From NCBI GenBank assembly GCA_937862805.1, contig CALMDO010000251.1, forward strand, positions 1 to 53,880: 53,880 nucleotides of DNA. Direction: 5' to 3'. This stretch comes from an uncultured Bacteroidota bacterium (lineage in GTDB: Bacteria; Bacteroidota; Bacteroidia; Bacteroidales; FEN-979). The notes below the pieces were generated by a model that searched no databases, was not told where the DNA came from, and worked only from the letters and a program-made list of their open reading frames with translations. The position numbers were made by a program, and so were the translations under genes. Shown here piece after piece: positions 8,771 through 49,246 of the stretch (the first letter of the stretch is position 1; every line of letters begins with the position of its first letter).

Positions 8771-9715
8771 ATGAAGAAACTCGCAGTAGTAGCCCTTGGC
8801 GGGAATGCTTTGTTGAGGGGTGATCAGAAAGGAACCATCGATGAACAGGAAGCCAATGCCAATGCCACGGCAGAATCCCTGGTTAAACTGTTGAAACGGG
8901 ATTACAACATTGTGATCACCCACGGTAATGGTCCACAGGTAGGCAACATCATGCTGGCAAACTCCGCCGGGTACAAACTCTTTGGTATTCCGGAGATGCC
9001 ACTTGACATCTGTGTAGCTTATTCTCAGGGATTCATCGGTTACATTATTGAGCAACAATTAAAAAACGTTCTTGAACAGCATGATATGGAGCGCGATATC
9101 ATTACGATTGCCACTCAGGTATTGGTCAATCGGGATGATCCCGCTTTTCAGAATCTGACCAAACCTGTCGGGCCCTATTATTCGAAAGAGGAAGCAGATG
9201 CCATGGCAGCAGAATCCGGATCGGTCTTCCGCGAAGATCCAAGGGGCAGGGGTTGGCGCAAAGTAGTTGCTTCTCCGCGTCCGCTGGTAATCATCAACAA
9301 GAAAACGATTGAAAAAATTGCCCGTCAGGGGCAGATCGTCATTGCAGTCGGAGGGGGGGGGATTCCGGTGTTTTATGTAGAACCCAACAAATTACAAGGA
9401 ATTGATGCCGTGATCGATAAAGACCTGGCTTCGGCTTTGCTTGCCTCCCAGATCAATGCCGACAAATTCTTCATTTTGACCGATGTTCCCAAAGTCTGTA
9501 TCAATTATAATACACCTCAGGAAAAATCGTTGGACCGGATAACCATTGCAGAGGCTAAAAGATATCTTGAAGAAGGGCAATTCCCAGATGGGAGCATGGG
9601 ACCCAAGATCCGTGCGGCCATTCATTTTGTGGAGCACTCAGGAAAGGATACCATCATTACCAAAACCACCATGCTGGGAATTGATAACGGAGGTACACGG
9701 ATTACACTGGTTTAA
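8771..9715 (+). CDS. arcC: Carbamate kinase
   Basis: 314 residues, the normal family length. It interconverts carbamoyl phosphate plus ADP with carbamate plus ATP; with arginine deiminase or ureide pathways it makes ATP from carbamoyl phosphate. Motifs: A-L-G-G-N-A-L-L-R-G at 8-17, T-H-G-N-G-P-Q-V-G (about 55-63), the glycine loop V-G-G-G-G-I-P-V near 193-200, and D-K-D-L-A-S nearby. No arcA, arcB or carbamoyltransferase is in the window, so the pathway it serves is unknown here. The glycine loop is encoded by nine consecutive G bases (9353-9361). It ends five bases from the convergent end of the hydG operon. Confidence 0.95.
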   Translation: MKKLAVVALGGNALLRGDQKGTIDEQEANANATAESLVKLLKRDYNIVITHGNGPQVGNIMLANSAGYKLFGIPEMPLDICVAYSQGFIGYIIEQQLKNVLEQHDMERDIITIATQVLVNRDDPAFQNLTKPVGPYYSKEEADAMAAESGSVFREDPRGRGWRKVVASPRPLVIINKKTIEKIARQGQIVIAVGGGGIPVFYVEPNKLQGIDAVIDKDLASALLASQINADKFFILTDVPKVCINYNTPQEKSLDRITIAEAKRYLEEGQFPDGSMGPKIRAAIHFVEHSGKDTIITKTTMLGIDNGGTRITLV

Positions 9716-9720
9716 GGGTT

Positions 9721-9978
9721 TTATTTTTGAAAAACCATTTTCCTGACCTCAGCTTCTTCAAGTTTCAGCAACTCGTTTTCCAGTTTACAGAATTCCTCCC
9801 TGTTCCCGATGAGTTCAAGCAGTACCATGCCGCTGGCAGAACAGTTTCCTTCTGTGGTTTCATGAAGACCCAACCGGGTCTTGATCGTACAGCCATATTT
9901 GGTAAGAATGTCCTGTAACGCTTGTGCCTGGCGGATGCGATCACTAAGCCGGATGCCTATTATCCATTGTTCGTTCAT
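9721..9978 (-). CDS. TM1266-type iron-only hydrogenase system regulator, copy B
   Basis: 85 residues. Last gene of the hydG operon, 16 bases after the histidine kinase. The pattern I-I-G-x-x-x-x-D-R-I at 6-15, the central I-K-x-R-L-G-x-H-E (32-40) and a hydrophobic E-L-x-G strand match the TM1266 family, small ACT/NikR-C-like proteins found beside hydA/hydE/hydF/hydG genes and named putative iron-only hydrogenase regulators. It has no DNA-binding domain of its own. It aligns without gaps to copy A with about 37 of 85 identical positions, sharing C46; C30 and C64 are unique to this copy. A role in sensing or regulating the hydrogenase system is family inference. Confidence 0.8.
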   Translation of the reverse strand: MNEQWIIGIRLSDRIRQAQALQDILTKYGCTIKTRLGLHETTEGNCSASGMVLLELIGNREEFCKLENELLKLEEAEVRKMVFQK

Positions 9979-9994
9979 AAAGGGTTTAATTTGA

Positions 9995-11662
9995 TTATTG
10001 ATTGAACGTTGCCTGATTTTTGAATGTTATTCTGAAAAGGGTCCCTTCCTGACTGACAATTTCCATTTTCCCTTCCAATTGTTCGACCAACAGTCTGACA
10101 ATGAACAGTCCCATCGAGGGCGTGTTGTCGATATTGAAGTTTGCGGGAAGTCCTGTCCCGTTGTCACTGATGGTCAGCGATAACTCATCCTCAGTTTTTT
10201 TCGACAATTCCAGTCGGATGATCCCCTCTCCATAATCAGAAGGGAAGGCATACTTGAATGCATTGGTAACCAGTTCGTTTGTAATGATTCCGATAGGAAG
10301 GGCGACATCAATGCTCATTAAGGCAGGGGTCAGATCTGTGATCAAATGGATCCGGGGCACACCGAACACCTGGCCGAGATTGGACGCAAGCGACGCGAGG
10401 TATTGTTCTATTGGGATTTGCTCGAAGCTTTCAGAACGATAGAGTTGTTCATGAATCAGTGCCATCGAACGGATACGCAATTCGATATCCCTGATGATGC
10501 GCTTTAATTCGTCGTTGTTGCTGAGTTTTTGTTGAAGTGTTAAAAGGCCGATAACGATAGCCAGGTTGTTTTTAACCCTATGATGGATTTCCCTGATCAT
10601 CATTTCTTTTTGCTGAATGTTCCGGGACTTCAGATCTTCTATTTCCTGTTCCCTGCTACGATCCCTCATGATGGTGATGATCTGGACTACTTTTTGATCT
10701 TTAAAAATGGGTACTTTTCTCACTTCCCCGTGAATTTTCCGGTCAACCAATTCAAAATCCTGTTTTTCCAGGATCATTTGCCCGTAGCGGAAAATCTGGT
10801 CAAATTCCTGCAGTGCTTTTTTTGAGATCAACGGATAAACAGTCGTGATTTTTTTTCCGATGCAATCCTCATAATAACCCTGTCGTTCATGTTCACTTTT
10901 CAGTGCGGAATTGAGCATCACGATCCGGTACTGTTCATCCACCACATAGATCCAATCAGGGATGGCGTCCAGGATGTTGTGGAGTTGAGTTTCATTGTTC
11001 TGTAATGCCTCTTCCGCTTTCAATCTGGTTTTGGATTCAATAAGCAGGTTTTGATAGTGAGCTGACAGCGCTTTCCGGTGGATGAAATTTTTCCAGTTCA
11101 GTTTTTCAATAATGATCGCCAGGATTGCTACCAGGGAATAGCCGGCTACTATGAAAAACAGGGAATTGATCATTTTTAAAGGATTCCTTGTCAAGGTTCC
11201 ATTCCAGGTGATGGTGAGGATGAAAGATAAGATCTGGCATCCACCGATGATCAACAGGTCTCGAAGGTGAAGCCTGTAAAAGGTGAACAAACCAAAAACG
11301 AGAAGCATTACCCAGGCGAAAAAGAAGTCGTAACCGGGGGTATTCAGGTCGGCTTTGTAGCCGACCAGGAAGATGACCGGACAAACCAACAGGTTCAGGA
11401 TAATAAAGATGGGTTGAAGATAAGGGAGAAGTCTTCGAAAATAGGTAACGAGGATAGAGAGGAGGAAAATCGGAAGGATCAGGCTAAACCGTCTGAAAAA
11501 GAGGTTTTCAGCGGGTTTGTTGAAAATAAAGTAGTTGCTGACAATCAGCAGCGCAAAAAGAATAATCGTCAGTGTCAGTCCGATTCTTAAGGCTGGCAGA
11601 GATTTTCTGAGGTAATAATCCCTGAATTCATCAGGCAGGGCGCTTCTTGAGTTTTTCGGCAT
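9995..11662 (-). CDS. Membrane-bound orphan sensor histidine kinase (PAS, HisKA_2)
   Basis: 555 residues. N-terminal membrane part with about six hydrophobic helices (roughly 25-45, 58-75, 82-101, 111-130, 134-152, 166-186), a short helical linker, a PAS domain (about 225-335), then a HisKA_2-type dimerisation domain with R-E-I-H-H-R-V-K-N-N where H360 is the expected phospho-acceptor. The ATPase domain has the N-box N-E-L-V-T-N-A-F-K (462-470), D-N-G-T-G at 500-504 and a M-G-L-F-I-V lid. No periplasmic sensor domain and no receiver domain. No response-regulator gene occurs anywhere in the window, so it is an orphan. It lies 9 bases after TM1266 copy A and 16 before copy B, implying co-expression with hydG. 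Confidence 0.9.
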   Translation of the reverse strand: MPKNSRSALPDEFRDYYLRKSLPALRIGLTLTIILFALLIVSNYFIFNKPAENLFFRRFSLILPIFLLSILVTYFRRLLPYLQPIFIILNLLVCPVIFLVGYKADLNTPGYDFFFAWVMLLVFGLFTFYRLHLRDLLIIGGCQILSFILTITWNGTLTRNPLKMINSLFFIVAGYSLVAILAIIIEKLNWKNFIHRKALSAHYQNLLIESKTRLKAEEALQNNETQLHNILDAIPDWIYVVDEQYRIVMLNSALKSEHERQGYYEDCIGKKITTVYPLISKKALQEFDQIFRYGQMILEKQDFELVDRKIHGEVRKVPIFKDQKVVQIITIMRDRSREQEIEDLKSRNIQQKEMMIREIHHRVKNNLAIVIGLLTLQQKLSNNDELKRIIRDIELRIRSMALIHEQLYRSESFEQIPIEQYLASLASNLGQVFGVPRIHLITDLTPALMSIDVALPIGIITNELVTNAFKYAFPSDYGEGIIRLELSKKTEDELSLTISDNGTGLPANFNIDNTPSMGLFIVRLLVEQLEGKMEIVSQEGTLFRITFKNQATFNQ

Positions 11663-11671
11663 CCTGGAGGG

Positions 11672-11929
11672 TTAACACGTGAAAACCATCCTTTGAAGTT
11701 CAACGCCCTCTACCTTTGCAAGTTCTTGTTCCAGGAGGTTGCATTCAGCCTGGCTTCCTGAAAGTTGTAAAATGATGACCCCCACGCGACTGCATACGTC
11801 CTCGCTTACTTCATGAAACCCCAGCCTCGATTTGATAAGATGGGCATGGGTAGTGAGGAGTTTCTGTGTACGACCCGCTTCCTTAATCCTGTCGGTGATC
11901 AGCAGGCCAATAATCCTGATTTCGTGCAT
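11672..11929 (-). CDS. TM1266-type iron-only hydrogenase system regulator, copy A
   Basis: 85 residues, 12 bases downstream of hydG and 9 bases before the kinase gene. Same family as copy B: I-I-G-L-L-I-T-D-R-I at 6-15, I-K-S-R-L-G-F-H-E at 32-40, then a valine/isoleucine strand. Cysteines at 46, 63 and 85; only C46 is shared with copy B. TM1266-like genes commonly accompany [FeFe]-hydrogenase and its maturases, which the direct hydG neighbour supports. The two copies flank the kinase and look like an old duplication with one member moved to the operon end. Confidence 0.85.
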   Translation of the reverse strand: MHEIRIIGLLITDRIKEAGRTQKLLTTHAHLIKSRLGFHEVSEDVCSRVGVIILQLSGSQAECNLLEQELAKVEGVELQRMVFTC

Positions 11930-11941
11930 AAGCCTTGTTTT

Positions 11942-13372
11942 TCAGAAGTAAAGATCTCTTTTTCCTTGTTTCACCAGGTTCAGTTTCTCTGTTAACTTGT
12001 CTTTAAAGCCGTCTGGTTTCATCTCTTCCAGCTTTTTCCGGATCAGTTCAAATCCCTGGTCACGGGTGGTTTCAGGTGCATAATCTTGCAGGTATTCGGC
12101 TAAAGTGAGTAAAGCATTCGGTTGGCAATACCTTTTAATAAACCCGGGGACTGAAAATTCCATAAAATGTTCTCCGGTTCTTCCCAAACGGTAGCAGGCT
12201 GTGCAGAATGAAGGAATGTATCCCTTTCCGATCAACTCATCCATGATCTCATTCAAGCTGCGGTTGTCGTTAATCTGAAATTGCTCGAGATCAATATCCT
12301 GAACTTCGGTCTCTTTATGTTTTGAGTAACCCCCCAACTCTATGTTGGTTCCGCCGTCGATCTGGGAAACGCCGAATTGAAGGATTTCATCCCGGATGGC
12401 AGCCGGTTCACGGGCTGTCAGGATCAGACCGGTATAAGGAACCGCTAAACGCAGAATGGCAACCAATCGGGTGAAATTCTCGTTATTAACCAGATAGGTT
12501 GAATCGATGTTCAGTTGAGAAGCAAACTGGATACGGGGGAAAGAGATCGTATGGGGACCCACATTGTAAACGGCTTCAAAATGGTTGGTATGCCGCACCA
12601 ATCCGAGGACTTCAAAACGCCAGTCGTACAATCCGAACAAAGCGCCGATACCCACATCATCGATTCCTGCTTCCTGGGCTCGATCTAAAGAGGTCAGCCG
12701 CCATTCAAAGTTTCTTTTCATACCTCCGCGATGAACCTGGGCGTAAGTTGGTTCATGGTAGGTTTCCTGGAAGATCTGGTAAGTTCCGATCTTCGCATCT
12801 TTGATGATCCTGAAACCATCAATGTCCATGGGGGCCGCGTTGATGTTAACCCGGCGAATCTCACCCGGCCCGCTTTTCACAGAATACACTGTTCGAACTG
12901 AATCGGCGATAAACTGTGCATCATACCGCGGATGTTCGCCGAAAACCAGGATCAACCTTTTTTGACCTGTATCCTCCAACGCCTTGACCTGATCGACCAG
13001 CTCCTGTTTTTCGAGGGTGACCCTTTTAACCTGTTTGTTGGAGGCTTTGAAACCACAGTAGACACAATTGTTGGTGCAAAGGTTCCCGACGTAGAGCGGG
13101 GCAAAAAGAACTATGCGTTGGCCATAAACTTTTTCTTTCAGGGTTCTGGCCCCTTGTTTGATCTCTTCGATCATTTCAGGGTCATCAGTTTTAAGGAGCG
13201 CAGCCGTTTCTTCCAGAGTAAGCCTGTTTTTATCAAGCGATTTGGCTATGATTTCCCTTACTCTTCCACGGTCAGCCCGGGCGTTATTGAGGTAATCCCA
13301 TAATTCATCCGGATCGATAAAAGGCCTCATCCGCTGATCCTTGATCTTGCAAATCTCAGGATTAAATTTCAT
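11942..13372 (-). CDS. hydG: [FeFe]-hydrogenase H-cluster radical-SAM maturase HydG
   Basis: 476 residues from the ATG at 13372; the longer frame to 13417 would start upstream of the -7 box at 13393-13400 and is unlikely. HydG cleaves L-tyrosine to give the CO and CN ligands of the H-cluster. It has the radical-SAM triad C99-x3-C103-x2-C106 (C-T-N-N-C-V-Y-C) and the C-terminal second-cluster motif C390-x2-C393-x22-C416, which separates HydG from the tyrosine lyase ThiH. The neighbouring TM1266-type genes agree. hydA, hydE and hydF are not in this window, so this is a detached part of the maturation set. Confidence 0.95.
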   Translation of the reverse strand: MKFNPEICKIKDQRMRPFIDPDELWDYLNNARADRGRVREIIAKSLDKNRLTLEETAALLKTDDPEMIEEIKQGARTLKEKVYGQRIVLFAPLYVGNLCTNNCVYCGFKASNKQVKRVTLEKQELVDQVKALEDTGQKRLILVFGEHPRYDAQFIADSVRTVYSVKSGPGEIRRVNINAAPMDIDGFRIIKDAKIGTYQIFQETYHEPTYAQVHRGGMKRNFEWRLTSLDRAQEAGIDDVGIGALFGLYDWRFEVLGLVRHTNHFEAVYNVGPHTISFPRIQFASQLNIDSTYLVNNENFTRLVAILRLAVPYTGLILTAREPAAIRDEILQFGVSQIDGGTNIELGGYSKHKETEVQDIDLEQFQINDNRSLNEIMDELIGKGYIPSFCTACYRLGRTGEHFMEFSVPGFIKRYCQPNALLTLAEYLQDYAPETTRDQGFELIRKKLEEMKPDGFKDKLTEKLNLVKQGKRDLYF

Positions 13373-13392
13373 TTGAAATGCTTTTAAGATTG

Positions 13393-13400
13393 CAAATTTA
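13393..13400 (-). promoter_or_regulatory. -7 promoter box for the hydG operon
   Basis: The complement reads TAAATTTG, an exact TAnnTTTG match, 20 bases before the hydG ATG. It argues for the 13372 start and for one transcript covering hydG, TM1266-A, kinase and TM1266-B. Confidence 0.55.
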
Positions 13401-13458: not shown

Positions 13459-14346
13459 TTAGCGCTCGTTGTTACCTCTTTCTGAAAGATAAACACCCCC
13501 GATCACCAACCCAATGCCGGCGATTTTTTGCAACGTAAAAACCTCCGAGAGCAATAAAAAGGAAAAGAGGGCTGTGAATACCGGGATCAGGTTGGTATAA
13601 ACATTGGACTTGCTGATTCCCAGATGCTTCACGGAATGAGCGAAGAAGACAAAAGCAACCGAAGAGGCAAAAACAGAGAGCAACAAAAAGGAGCTCACTA
13701 TCTGGCTGTTAAGCGGAACTGCGATGGCTTTCCTGAACTCAAGGACGAGGAATAAGGGCAGGAAAAGAAAGATTCCTATGAGATTTTGATAAGCAATGAT
13801 TGTGAGGGCGGAGTATCTGACCGACAATTTGCGCAACGTGACACTGTAAAAAAGCGAAGTAAAGACGGCCCCTCCCAGAAACAAAACGCCCCTTACATCC
13901 ACAGCCAGGGAAAAGGCGCGGGTGATCAACATGATCAAAACTCCGGAAAAAGAGATAAAAATTCCGATAAAATTGATCGGTCTCAGCTTTTCTTTCATGG
14001 TTATATAGGCGACCAATGGCGAAAAAACCGGGATCATGGCGATGATCACCGCGGCAATGGTGGGTGTACTGTATTTCAATCCGTAATTCTCGCATAAGAA
14101 ATAAAGAAAGGGATTGAACAAGGCACTCATTACGATCAAAAGGCGGTCTTTCCGCAGAATTTTCTCATTTTGTTTTAAAAGGGTAAGAAGGGTATAGAGA
14201 AAAGCAGTGGAAAGGATCAGCCTGATAAAGATGATGGTGATGGGCTGGTAATATTTTAAAAGTACCGAACTCCAGATGAAGGAGAGCCCCCAGAAGAGCA
14301 TTGCTACAAGGGCATAAACCGGGGCCGGTAGGGTGAATTTTTTCAA
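13459..14346 (-). CDS. EamA/DMT-family transporter
   Basis: 295 residues, about ten hydrophobic helices in two EamA repeats: the first has L-F-W-G-L-S-F-I-W-S near 18-27 and closes with G-I-F-I-S-F-S-G-V-L-I; the second ends with F-L-L-L-S-E-V-F and G-I-G-L-V-I-G-G-V-Y. Members export amino acids, sugars or other small metabolites; the substrate cannot be inferred. The frame begins with TTG, seven bases after a -7 box, so the message would be almost leaderless; an ATG 15 residues in is an alternative but would cut into the first helix. It is divergent from the ECF sigma gene. Confidence 0.87.
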   Translation of the reverse strand: MKKFTLPAPVYALVAMLFWGLSFIWSSVLLKYYQPITIIFIRLILSTAFLYTLLTLLKQNEKILRKDRLLIVMSALFNPFLYFLCENYGLKYSTPTIAAVIIAMIPVFSPLVAYITMKEKLRPINFIGIFISFSGVLIMLITRAFSLAVDVRGVLFLGGAVFTSLFYSVTLRKLSVRYSALTIIAYQNLIGIFLFLPLFLVLEFRKAIAVPLNSQIVSSFLLLSVFASSVAFVFFAHSVKHLGISKSNVYTNLIPVFTALFSFLLLSEVFTLQKIAGIGLVIGGVYLSERGNNER

Positions 14347-47218: not shown

Positions 47219-49246
47219 TTAATTGTTAAGACTCTCTTCATGAGGAGCAGTGACATTAAAATCAGGAAACCGGATCCGCAGATCCGATGTCAGGTAAACC
47301 TGGAAAGGATTCAGGAATGCGCCGGAATTCGGGTAAAAATATCCGGCAATCATGAAAGTGGGGAAAACAAGGTTATCATTTTTAATCAATAATCCGGCTC
47401 CGATTCCTGAGATCAATGGTTGAGTGATGATATCTGCCCCCTGAGGAGCTACCAGACCAGCTTGTAAATTGGCCATCAAACCGAACCGGAAACCATAAAA
47501 AAACCAGGGAGGGAAGCAGATCTCGGTAAGGTTCACCGAGAGGGTATGAATCCCTTCAAGCGCTTCTTCTTCATTGATCTTGTTGATCCTGAAGTCGAGG
47601 TTGATATCGTAGTAATCCCTGAAATTCGGCCGTAAATTGAAGGCATACCGGTAATTGGTGATCAGGTAGGTCCTGAACTTGAATTTCCCGTTATGACTCC
47701 TGTATAATGGTGTGAAATACTTGGTGTACACCTTGAGAATTGCATCCTCAAAGGAGGATTTGTGCCAGTATCCGCTCAGTCCGGCATATCCTGAAAAATA
47801 GCCTGCATGATCGAAATACTTTCCCGCCGAGACGGAAAATCCTGAGTATATCCGCTCATAATAATCTGTCTGGTCATATCCTGCGGTAAATTGGATAAGA
47901 TGACCATAAGGCAGGTTCTCGGTTTTCCCGAAAGAGGTAACGTAATCAGTAACGTAGTATTTGTTGTTCGACCACGAGAGACTACCCAGGACTTTAAAGG
48001 TGTTGTAATAACTGCGGTTAGAGTCGATCGTAACCTCCGGGCGCATTGAAAACTGCTTCCGGTATGTTGCAATTGCTATGACCATACGGGAACTTTTCGG
48101 AGAACTCAAATGGAAAGACCGTCCGACCCAAAACTGTTCTTCGTTATACCGGGAAGTGATTGCCTGGCCGGTATCAGGTTCGCTGACATCTTTCCACCAG
48201 GCCGCCCCGATTCCCCCGGCCCACTTGGTCCTGTTGGTGAGAAATGGTTTTTCGGCCGACACTTCATAACTTCGGTCTCCCTCGTTATTGGCATAATACT
48301 CAAGATATGCATTGATTTGTGATCCCCCGATATTGCTGAAAGAATAAGATACGCCGTCCAGCCTGAAAAAGGGCGCCCGTTTAAGTTCCGCCGAAGTATT
48401 GACCGTCAGCCGGTCGCCCAATCCCAGAAAGTTGGCGTCATAAAACCGGACAGCTATTTTTTGAGTAGTGATGCTGGGGATGTCCAGGCCAATCGACCAA
48501 ACATCCTTCGTGATAACTACCAGGTCAACCGAATCCGTGGAAGAATCGGCTTGTTCAACGAGGATCCGGGCATCATCAATGTACGGGAGATCTCGTAATA
48601 CCCGTTCATTGTCACCAAGTAACTCCGGATCAACGGGTTCACCTTCTTTGATCAATAAATTTTTCTTTATCACGGCACTTCGTGAATTCATGTGGACCTT
48701 ATTAAGCCACTTACCGGCCCCTGTCAATGGCGCCATCGTGGTATCAAACAACGACTCCCCGAAAGGATGCAGCACTTTAATCCTGATACTCCGGATGATC
48801 TTGGATTTGTATGGAACAAAGGGATCAGTGCTCTTTATCACCTGTACTGAATCGGGTAAAGAACTATTTTGCGGGGCAATGAAAGCAAGATCATATAAAA
48901 ATCGTGTGATCTTGTTTCGGGAAAACTTACGGTAAACCGAATCGTAAAAGGTCTTCGATTTCATGTGAAAGGATGTATCTCTTTTCCGTGACAGTTCAAA
49001 AGTACCTGTTAAAAAAGTATCTTTCTGAATGCAGATGATGAGGTCTTTTGTGAGGATCAATGGTCCTTTCCTGATGTAGAGGGTATCCTTTCCCGGGAGC
49101 GGGCTGCTTTTCTTTTTTCCCCCGGGAGTGACCAATGGGTCTATCGAAAGAAAAGAGTATAGGAAAGGGAGGAAAATGAACAGAAGGAGAAGACGATACC
49201 TTATAAGATGATATCTTTGCTTTGGCATCTTCAATCCCCGGGTCAT
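47219..49246 (-). CDS. Omp85-like (POTRA plus beta-barrel) outer-membrane protein
   Basis: 675 residues. A hydrophobic N-terminal segment (about 17-35) acts as signal. One POTRA-like fold is seen near residues 190-250: I-K-K-N-L-L-I-K-E-G-E-P, L-L-G-D-N-E-R-V-L-R-D-L-P-Y-I-D-D-A-R-I. The rest reads as an alternating beta-barrel of about 16 strands, without a clear bacterial-surface-antigen V-R-G-F motif. This suggests a short BamA/TamA relative. It begins directly after the phosphohexomutase stop (TAA-ATG); an ATG at 49228 is an alternative start. Confidence 0.8.
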   Translation of the reverse strand: MTRGLKMPKQRYHLIRYRLLLLFIFLPFLYSFLSIDPLVTPGGKKKSSPLPGKDTLYIRKGPLILTKDLIICIQKDTFLTGTFELSRKRDTSFHMKSKTFYDSVYRKFSRNKITRFLYDLAFIAPQNSSLPDSVQVIKSTDPFVPYKSKIIRSIRIKVLHPFGESLFDTTMAPLTGAGKWLNKVHMNSRSAVIKKNLLIKEGEPVDPELLGDNERVLRDLPYIDDARILVEQADSSTDSVDLVVITKDVWSIGLDIPSITTQKIAVRFYDANFLGLGDRLTVNTSAELKRAPFFRLDGVSYSFSNIGGSQINAYLEYYANNEGDRSYEVSAEKPFLTNRTKWAGGIGAAWWKDVSEPDTGQAITSRYNEEQFWVGRSFHLSSPKSSRMVIAIATYRKQFSMRPEVTIDSNRSYYNTFKVLGSLSWSNNKYYVTDYVTSFGKTENLPYGHLIQFTAGYDQTDYYERIYSGFSVSAGKYFDHAGYFSGYAGLSGYWHKSSFEDAILKVYTKYFTPLYRSHNGKFKFRTYLITNYRYAFNLRPNFRDYYDINLDFRINKINEEEALEGIHTLSVNLTEICFPPWFFYGFRFGLMANLQAGLVAPQGADIITQPLISGIGAGLLIKNDNLVFPTFMIAGYFYPNSGAFLNPFQVYLTSDLRIRFPDFNVTAPHEESLNN

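Follow-up and report, generated by a model that had tools for sequence, protein, structure and literature searches.

A diverged pair of CPF_0552-type small proteins and an orphan membrane kinase at the hydG locus of a Bacteroidales family

What do two small proteins and a membrane histidine kinase do directly behind hydG, the gene for the radical SAM maturase of the [FeFe]-hydrogenase H-cluster? The question is raised by an uncultured Bacteroidota bacterium (GTDB lineage Bacteroidales; FEN-979), from whose assembly GCA_937862805.1 we analysed contig CALMDO010000251.1, positions 1 to 53,880 of the forward strand; this whole stretch of 53,880 nucleotides is called the window. On its minus strand hydG, a small-protein gene here named A, the kinase gene and a second small-protein gene, B, follow one another. 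A first reading of the letters alone (the sequence-only reading) had proposed that the two small proteins modulate or report to the kinase in an undescribed hydrogenase control system. We favor an H-cluster maturation operon in which A and B form a pair, perhaps with a shared NikR-like site, that serves hydG, the orphan kinase being an accessory, and put the probability of this reading at a little under one half (about 0.48).

The hydG unit across the family

The hydG gene (11942..13372, minus strand, ATG at 13372) scores 495.8 bits against the TIGR03955 cut-off of 312.15, and its product is matched by the structures PDB 4wcx_A (E 4.7e-130) and HydG 4rtb_A (E 4.3e-111). It is followed on the same strand by A (11672..11929), the kinase (9995..11662) and B (9721..9978), and the coordinates bear out the order and the intergenic gaps of 12, 9 and 16 bases given by the sequence-only reading. 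Just 5' of hydG lies TAAATTTG (13393..13400, minus strand), a Bacteroidota-type -7 promoter box with the pattern TAnnTTTG, which we take to be the consensus of that element. The pattern occurs within 80 bases upstream of hydG in all 24 genomes whose upstream sequences were picked by hand from the family survey, against a shuffled expectation of 1.00.

The family survey comprised 43 genomes, that of the window included, with readable hydG regions in 41; the other two are G012, where hydG meets a contig end, and G037, which has no hydG above the cut-off. The order hydG-A-kinase-B is present in 26 of the 41, in 24 on one contig and in two (G020 and G024) spread over two contigs, for which the full order was assigned by inference. 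It is thus no one-off of the window contig, and the unit stands. The remaining arrangements are hydG-A-B (8 genomes), hydG-A-alkaline phosphatase-B (1), hydG-kinase (3), hydG alone (2), and B alone (1). Because the flanking genes (sigma factor, EamA, arcC, and mtaB) recur with few exceptions wherever the contig is long enough, we regard these variants as states of one genomic site. In G042 (L052:772-2241) the position of the kinase between A and B is occupied by the alkaline-phosphatase-like gene (PF00245). One further locus, L184 (SACF01000012.1), is titled Alphaproteobacteria in its record, but both its proteins and the order of its genes match the Bacteroidales family; it is probably a mislabelled metagenome-assembled genome.

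Among the 23 contiguous relatives, most gaps between the four genes are shorter than 25 bases; the widest, from hydG to A in L042, measures 60. These short gaps, together with those of the window and the box found in 24 of 24 genomes, support the earlier proposal of a single unit with one promoter, from which the four genes would be co-transcribed.

Two small proteins with divided conservation

A and B are 85-residue proteins that the sequence-only reading had labelled TM1266-type. The label holds for the fold, as seen in a model of A, and for general relatedness. It does not hold for the family, since both fall below the TIGR03959 (TM1266) cut-off of 60.8 bits (A 31.4, B 19.6) and are of the CPF_0552 type (NF052672, cut-off 85), with B above at 98.4 bits and A just under at 82.1. 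As controls, the crystallised TM1266 stretch (2NZC) scored 97.1 bits on TIGR03959 and 29.0 on NF052672, and Thermotoga maritima has an NF052672 member above the cut-off. The model of A (pLDDT 90.5) is a single ACT-like domain over the 85 residues. Its best Foldseek match is TM1266 itself (2nzc_A, E 8.5e-07, TMq 0.81), the TM1266 chains being followed by the E2 DNA-binding domain, NikR, and many ferredoxin-like folds that include nickel-bound NikR and ACT domains. A PDB search with the sequence of A alone gave no match.

The likeness to TM1266 (TIGR03959/PF21699) lies in the fold, in a profile match of 7.1e-07, and in the hydG neighborhood. Two things set the window's lineage apart: H39 and C46 (residues are numbered as in the window's A throughout) are absent from 2NZC in the alignment, and the lineage has a diverged pair. 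The pattern R35, G37, H39, C46, and S47 is shared with the CPF_0552 family; the difference from that family lies in the presence of two copies between which residue conservation is split. Two Lentisphaerae genomes (L309 and L310) carry a TM1266-like copy with an ARTGIPY pattern plus a CPF_0552 protein, the former reaching 97.8 bits on TIGR03959 in L309. The likeness to the ACT-like C-terminal domain of NikR lies in fold matches that include the nickel-bound structures 1q5y, 2bj7, and 2y3y, but A is without the ribbon-helix-helix DNA-binding part according to its model, and B likewise by its length and alignment.

Named relatives were collected by a scan with A-type protein queries; the best 80 of its 103 relatives gave 79 named loci, 56 with two copies and 23 with one copy in view. 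A-type proteins form one side of a marked branch in the small-protein tree (SH-aLRT 98). All 68 of them keep H39 and C46, and a single one has C30; the window copy has H39, E40, and C46 (codons of H39 to C46 at 11792..11815, minus strand) and no C30. B-type proteins show the complementary picture, with C30 in 63 of 65, H39 in 52, and C46 in 42, corresponding to 2, 6, and 15 changes on the tree; one B is counted twice in these residue counts, L250 and L286 being identical in sequence. The window's B has all three residues, its C30 codon lying at 9889..9891 (minus strand). An alignment made of these proteins covers 57 of the 79 named loci besides the window. Judged by position in the pair only (n = 57 pairs), C30 occurs in one A and 55 B, and the full triad in one A and 31 B. 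Of 35 single copies from other lineages (11 from other phyla and 24 from a sample of the phylum), 33 possess all three of C30, H39, and C46.

The two genes are also kept together. Both are present in 35 of the 41 readable family genomes, neither in five, and B alone in one. Eight genomes with a lone hydG-linked A were tested, leaving aside the contig-cut L174 and L190 as well as L236, which comes from the same assembly as L235; seven of them have a B-type copy, each on another contig. Among them L198 and L250 are the lone-A and unlinked-B contigs of a single named metagenome-assembled genome, UBA2030. The unlinked B-type genes of L283, L284, and L286 lie amid reading frames of similar sizes, and that of L284 has a HAD hydrolase and a tRNA pseudouridine synthase as neighbors. 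The A:B pair is likely a functional unit. It is doubtful that A and B are instead ordinary duplicated regulators, with B drifting, C30 merely structural, and no composite site between them. Such drift would fit the faster divergence of B (mean column identity 71%, against 78% for A), its repeated loss of H39 and C46, and the full triad still found in 31 of 57 B; drift alone leaves unexplained why C30 is kept in 63 of 65 B-type and absent from 67 of 68 A-type proteins, why A and B are absent jointly in five genomes with one exception, and why unlinked B-types turn up in seven of the eight lone-A genomes.

A-type proteins are strongly linked to hydG, the CPF_0552 family overall more loosely. In all 68 A-type loci, the window included, A comes after hydG, with an extra reading frame between them in three (L192, L196, and L238). 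In 395 genomes of the phylum, CPF_0552 proteins were found in 25 (E 1e-6), hydG in 32 (E 1e-90), and both in 17 (Fisher p 1.6e-15, with relatedness ignored). No hydG was recognised within the 1.5 kb or less available on each side of the 24 CPF_0552 loci of the phylum sample (L070-L093), which encode single proteins of other families of the phylum, mostly with the pattern WGC-IKTRLGIHDG-CSD. The invariable position of A behind hydG, the conserved His-Glu-Cys loop, and the presence of just one ACT-like domain, with no part for binding DNA, would also suit a protein pair that carries or shields the organometallic product of HydG on its way to HydE and regulates nothing. We consider such a carrier unlikely, given the five family genomes that have hydG and neither A nor B, and the occurrence of CPF_0552 proteins in genomes where no hydG was found. 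HydE, HydF, and HydG, moreover, mature the H-cluster in vitro and need no A- or B-like protein to do so.

The membrane kinase, its candidate partner and the flanking genes

The kinase is a protein of 555 residues with six hydrophobic N-terminal segments by hydropathy, to which no Pfam family was matched, followed by a PAS domain (PF08448), HisKA_2 (85.8 bits), and HATPase_c. Its H-box, EIHHRVKNN, is invariant in 24 of 24 aligned kinases, as expected of a HisKA_2 histidine kinase. As the sequence-only reading had it, the protein has no receiver and no response regulator lies nearby. None occurs in the window: the genome has 48 receiver matches (45 above the cut-off), none of them on C251, the contig that the window fills. 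The structural model of the kinase has a pTM of 0.40, and the fold search recovered the PAS-kinase core, with an overall TMq of 0.19-0.29 among the 50 best rows.

A profile built from 24 kinases matched the membrane part in 29 of the 43 family genomes, in every case directly after hydG or hydG-A, which agrees with the description of an orphan kinase tied to hydG. The remaining profile matches in the same genomes (E 1e-70 or better) span the PAS-kinase part only, and one of them, checked by Pfam, is a multi-PAS protein; the idea of a generic kinase scattered through these genomes was therefore rejected. At L157:4405-6609 lies a multi-PAS HisKA_2 kinase whose final PAS-plus-kinase module shares 52% identity with the hydG-linked kinase. 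Similar matches that score above 450 bits were seen in 14 genomes of the genus, some of them located 10-22 kb away from hydG. In a strict search of 393 genomes of the order, with up to three candidates scored per genome, four matched at E 1e-90 or better; all belong to the window's family, and one of the four rests on the PAS-kinase part only.

Divergence of the kinase tracks that of flanking markers (Mantel r 0.89, n = 25 genomes), as expected if the kinase is inherited with the hydG locus. Its presence and absence require at least six changes on a tree of five marker proteins, and its spread across the family suggests a kinase that is old in the family and often lost, direction of change being left aside. 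In G036 and G040 the hydG-site kinases (L068:7997-9292 and L150:502-1797) are missing the PAS domain and keep the membrane and kinase parts; G040, one of the three genomes with hydG-kinase, is 69% complete.

Among HisKA_2/HWE sensor kinases, the blue-light kinase EL346 resembles ours in the kinase core (4r39, TMt 0.66-0.70). The PhyK model is matched by all 24 kinases, but the window kinase reaches 91.7 bits against a PhyK cut-off of 750. What distinguishes it from these kinases is the six-segment membrane part, seen in the family only at hydG. By adjoining hydrogenase genes it also recalls the clusters with [FeFe]-hydrogenase-domain sensor kinases, but the kinase of that type in the same genome has a hydrogenase-like domain and a HisKA core, and the hydG-linked kinase has neither. 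That second kinase lies on C74 (L101:5864-15096), where it comes after hydABC-like genes and is itself followed by a receiver, a receiver-kinase, and Rex, all on one strand. On the opposite strand another hydrogenase-like gene is cut off by the contig end.

The kinase and the small proteins are separable. A and B occur without the kinase in nine of the 41 readable genomes, and hydG-kinase without A and B in three. In named loci outside the family gene frame, A or A-B comes after hydG and the stretch in view shows no such kinase; in several of these loci the run also includes Rex and a hydrogenase-domain sensor kinase. Together these cases argue against A and B having been built around the kinase, and the proposal that the small proteins exist to modulate it or report to it found no support. 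Contrasts of independent pairs on the tree gave 1.0 changing the same way, 1.1 the opposite way, and 2.9 without difference, the five pairs being too few for significance; G035 was counted as kinase-absent and set aside for A/B on the tree.

A single three-protein control system, in which A and B dock on the kinase and inform it of the H-cluster or redox state, accordingly strikes us as improbable. It would account for the 26 of 41 genomes with hydG-A-kinase-B, mostly with short gaps, and for a membrane kinase found at the hydG locus only. It sits badly with the genomes that have one part and not the other, with the want of any joint change in the five (underpowered) pairs, and with 33 of the 56 named A-B pairs that have no such kinase between them. 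Direct dialogue with the kinase is unlikely as the main role of the pair, though A or B may still touch it in this lineage. Of the control-system idea itself, the conserved unit remains, as does a kinase that is a hydG-locus specialty of one family, but the wider feature is the A:B pair.

A candidate partner for the kinase is a regulator beside hydE. On C74 of the same genome (L100:7691-8449), an orphan LytTR response regulator, one of the 48 receiver matches, is divergent from hydE at a distance of 89 bases. Close relatives (61-86% identity) are present in 20 other family genomes, one of them a fragment and one with an internal stop, either by hydE or by ychF on a separate contig; in most relatives hydE adjoins ychF, with the LytTR regulator between them or not. 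The kinase and this regulator might be the two halves of a split two-component system through which hydE and hydG are adjusted jointly, a proposal that we think unlikely to hold. In the 40 genomes scored (G001 was additionally excluded, as hydE was not seen in it), both genes are present in 16 and both absent in eight, as the proposal would have it, but the kinase occurs alone in 12 and the regulator alone in four (Fisher p 0.30). The five independent pairs, too few to be decisive, gave 0.0 changing the same way, 0.3 the opposite way, and 4.7 without difference, and inspection by eye of the sequences upstream of hydE and hydG, taken from 24 genomes, revealed no common motif.

Upstream of hydG lies a gene for an EamA transporter (13459..14346, minus strand, PF00892), found in this place in most relatives. 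Downstream, the unit ends at the convergent carbamate kinase gene arcC (8771..9715, plus strand, TIGR00746 386.4 bits), likewise a conserved flank, whose stop is five bases from that of B. Rfam and tRNA scans of the window gave no match. Elsewhere in the window, an open reading frame of 675 residues (47219-49246, minus strand) has no Pfam match at E 0.001.

A possible shared site and its meaning for H-cluster supply

At the core of the maturation operon that we favor would stand hydG and two diverged small proteins acting as a pair. In the model of A, position 30 comes before strand 32-39 and H39 stands at the strand end. Since this strand spans more than 20 Å, the ends that carry C30 and H39 could probably meet only across subunits. 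A would bring the invariant His39/Cys46 loop and B the near-invariant Gly29-Cys30 at the opposite end of the same strand, and the two together may create a single site between subunits that accommodates a metal or a metallo-cofactor. The precedent is NikR, whose nickel site joins residues of two subunits. A composite A:B site of this kind is an attractive and testable guess, suggested by the residue pattern. It might hold or sense iron or the product of HydG, and maturation would thereby be matched to supply. The kinase would contribute an accessory input. Passed on together with the hydG locus in this family and independent of A and B, it may respond to a membrane or redox cue and phosphorylate a regulator encoded elsewhere.

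Several observations weigh against this reading. The full triad is retained by 31 of 57 paired B proteins, that of the window included, and these could still form a homomer, which weakens the idea that B needs residues of A. The small-protein tree is based on 83 columns and most of its forks are weakly supported. G441, an assembly of 2.1 Mb, has A and no B was found in it. Papillomavirus E2, ACT, and other ferredoxin-like folds are among the fold matches of A as well, and E. coli NikR aligned to the A profile with an hhalign probability of 0.1%, that is, with no sequence homology. The equivalence of the proposed site to that of NikR would follow from the fold and from the ligands of the NikR site. 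Finally, eight of the 25 CPF_0552-bearing genomes of the phylum show no hydG, 15 of the 32 hydG-bearing ones show no CPF_0552 protein, and five family genomes have hydG without A and B.

A bolder version may be stated, which we hold to be rather unlikely as a whole. In Bacteroidota a NikR-like metal protein that was ancestrally a homo-oligomer would have been divided into two obligate partners, A and B. The composite site at their interface would bind iron or the Fe-CO-CN compound made by HydG, and the pair would be a missing factor of H-cluster assembly or sensing. One lineage would then have added a dedicated membrane kinase, tuning maturation by a membrane signal.

Published sources touch on the small proteins in passing. 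A 'CopG family' gene of Caldicellulosiruptor forms with hydG a predicted two-gene unit that is bound by Rex (PMC6391272), and this gene is probably TM1266-like. An expression table in a CO2 study lists the Thermotoga neapolitana gene named 'iron-only hydrogenase system regulator' with hydE, hydF, and hydG (PMC7039931), and a third source gives 46% identity to TM1266 (PMC9679718). PDB entry 2NZC is titled as an uncharacterized protein. In the titles and abstract beginnings of the open-access literature, we found no functional study of TM1266-like or CPF_0552 proteins and nothing on the A:B pair or this kinase.

The split conservation between A and B names the exact residues and the partner through which the role of the small TM1266-like proteins next to hydG can be tested. 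The kinase, found only after hydG, offers in turn a genetic entry point to the control of H-cluster supply.

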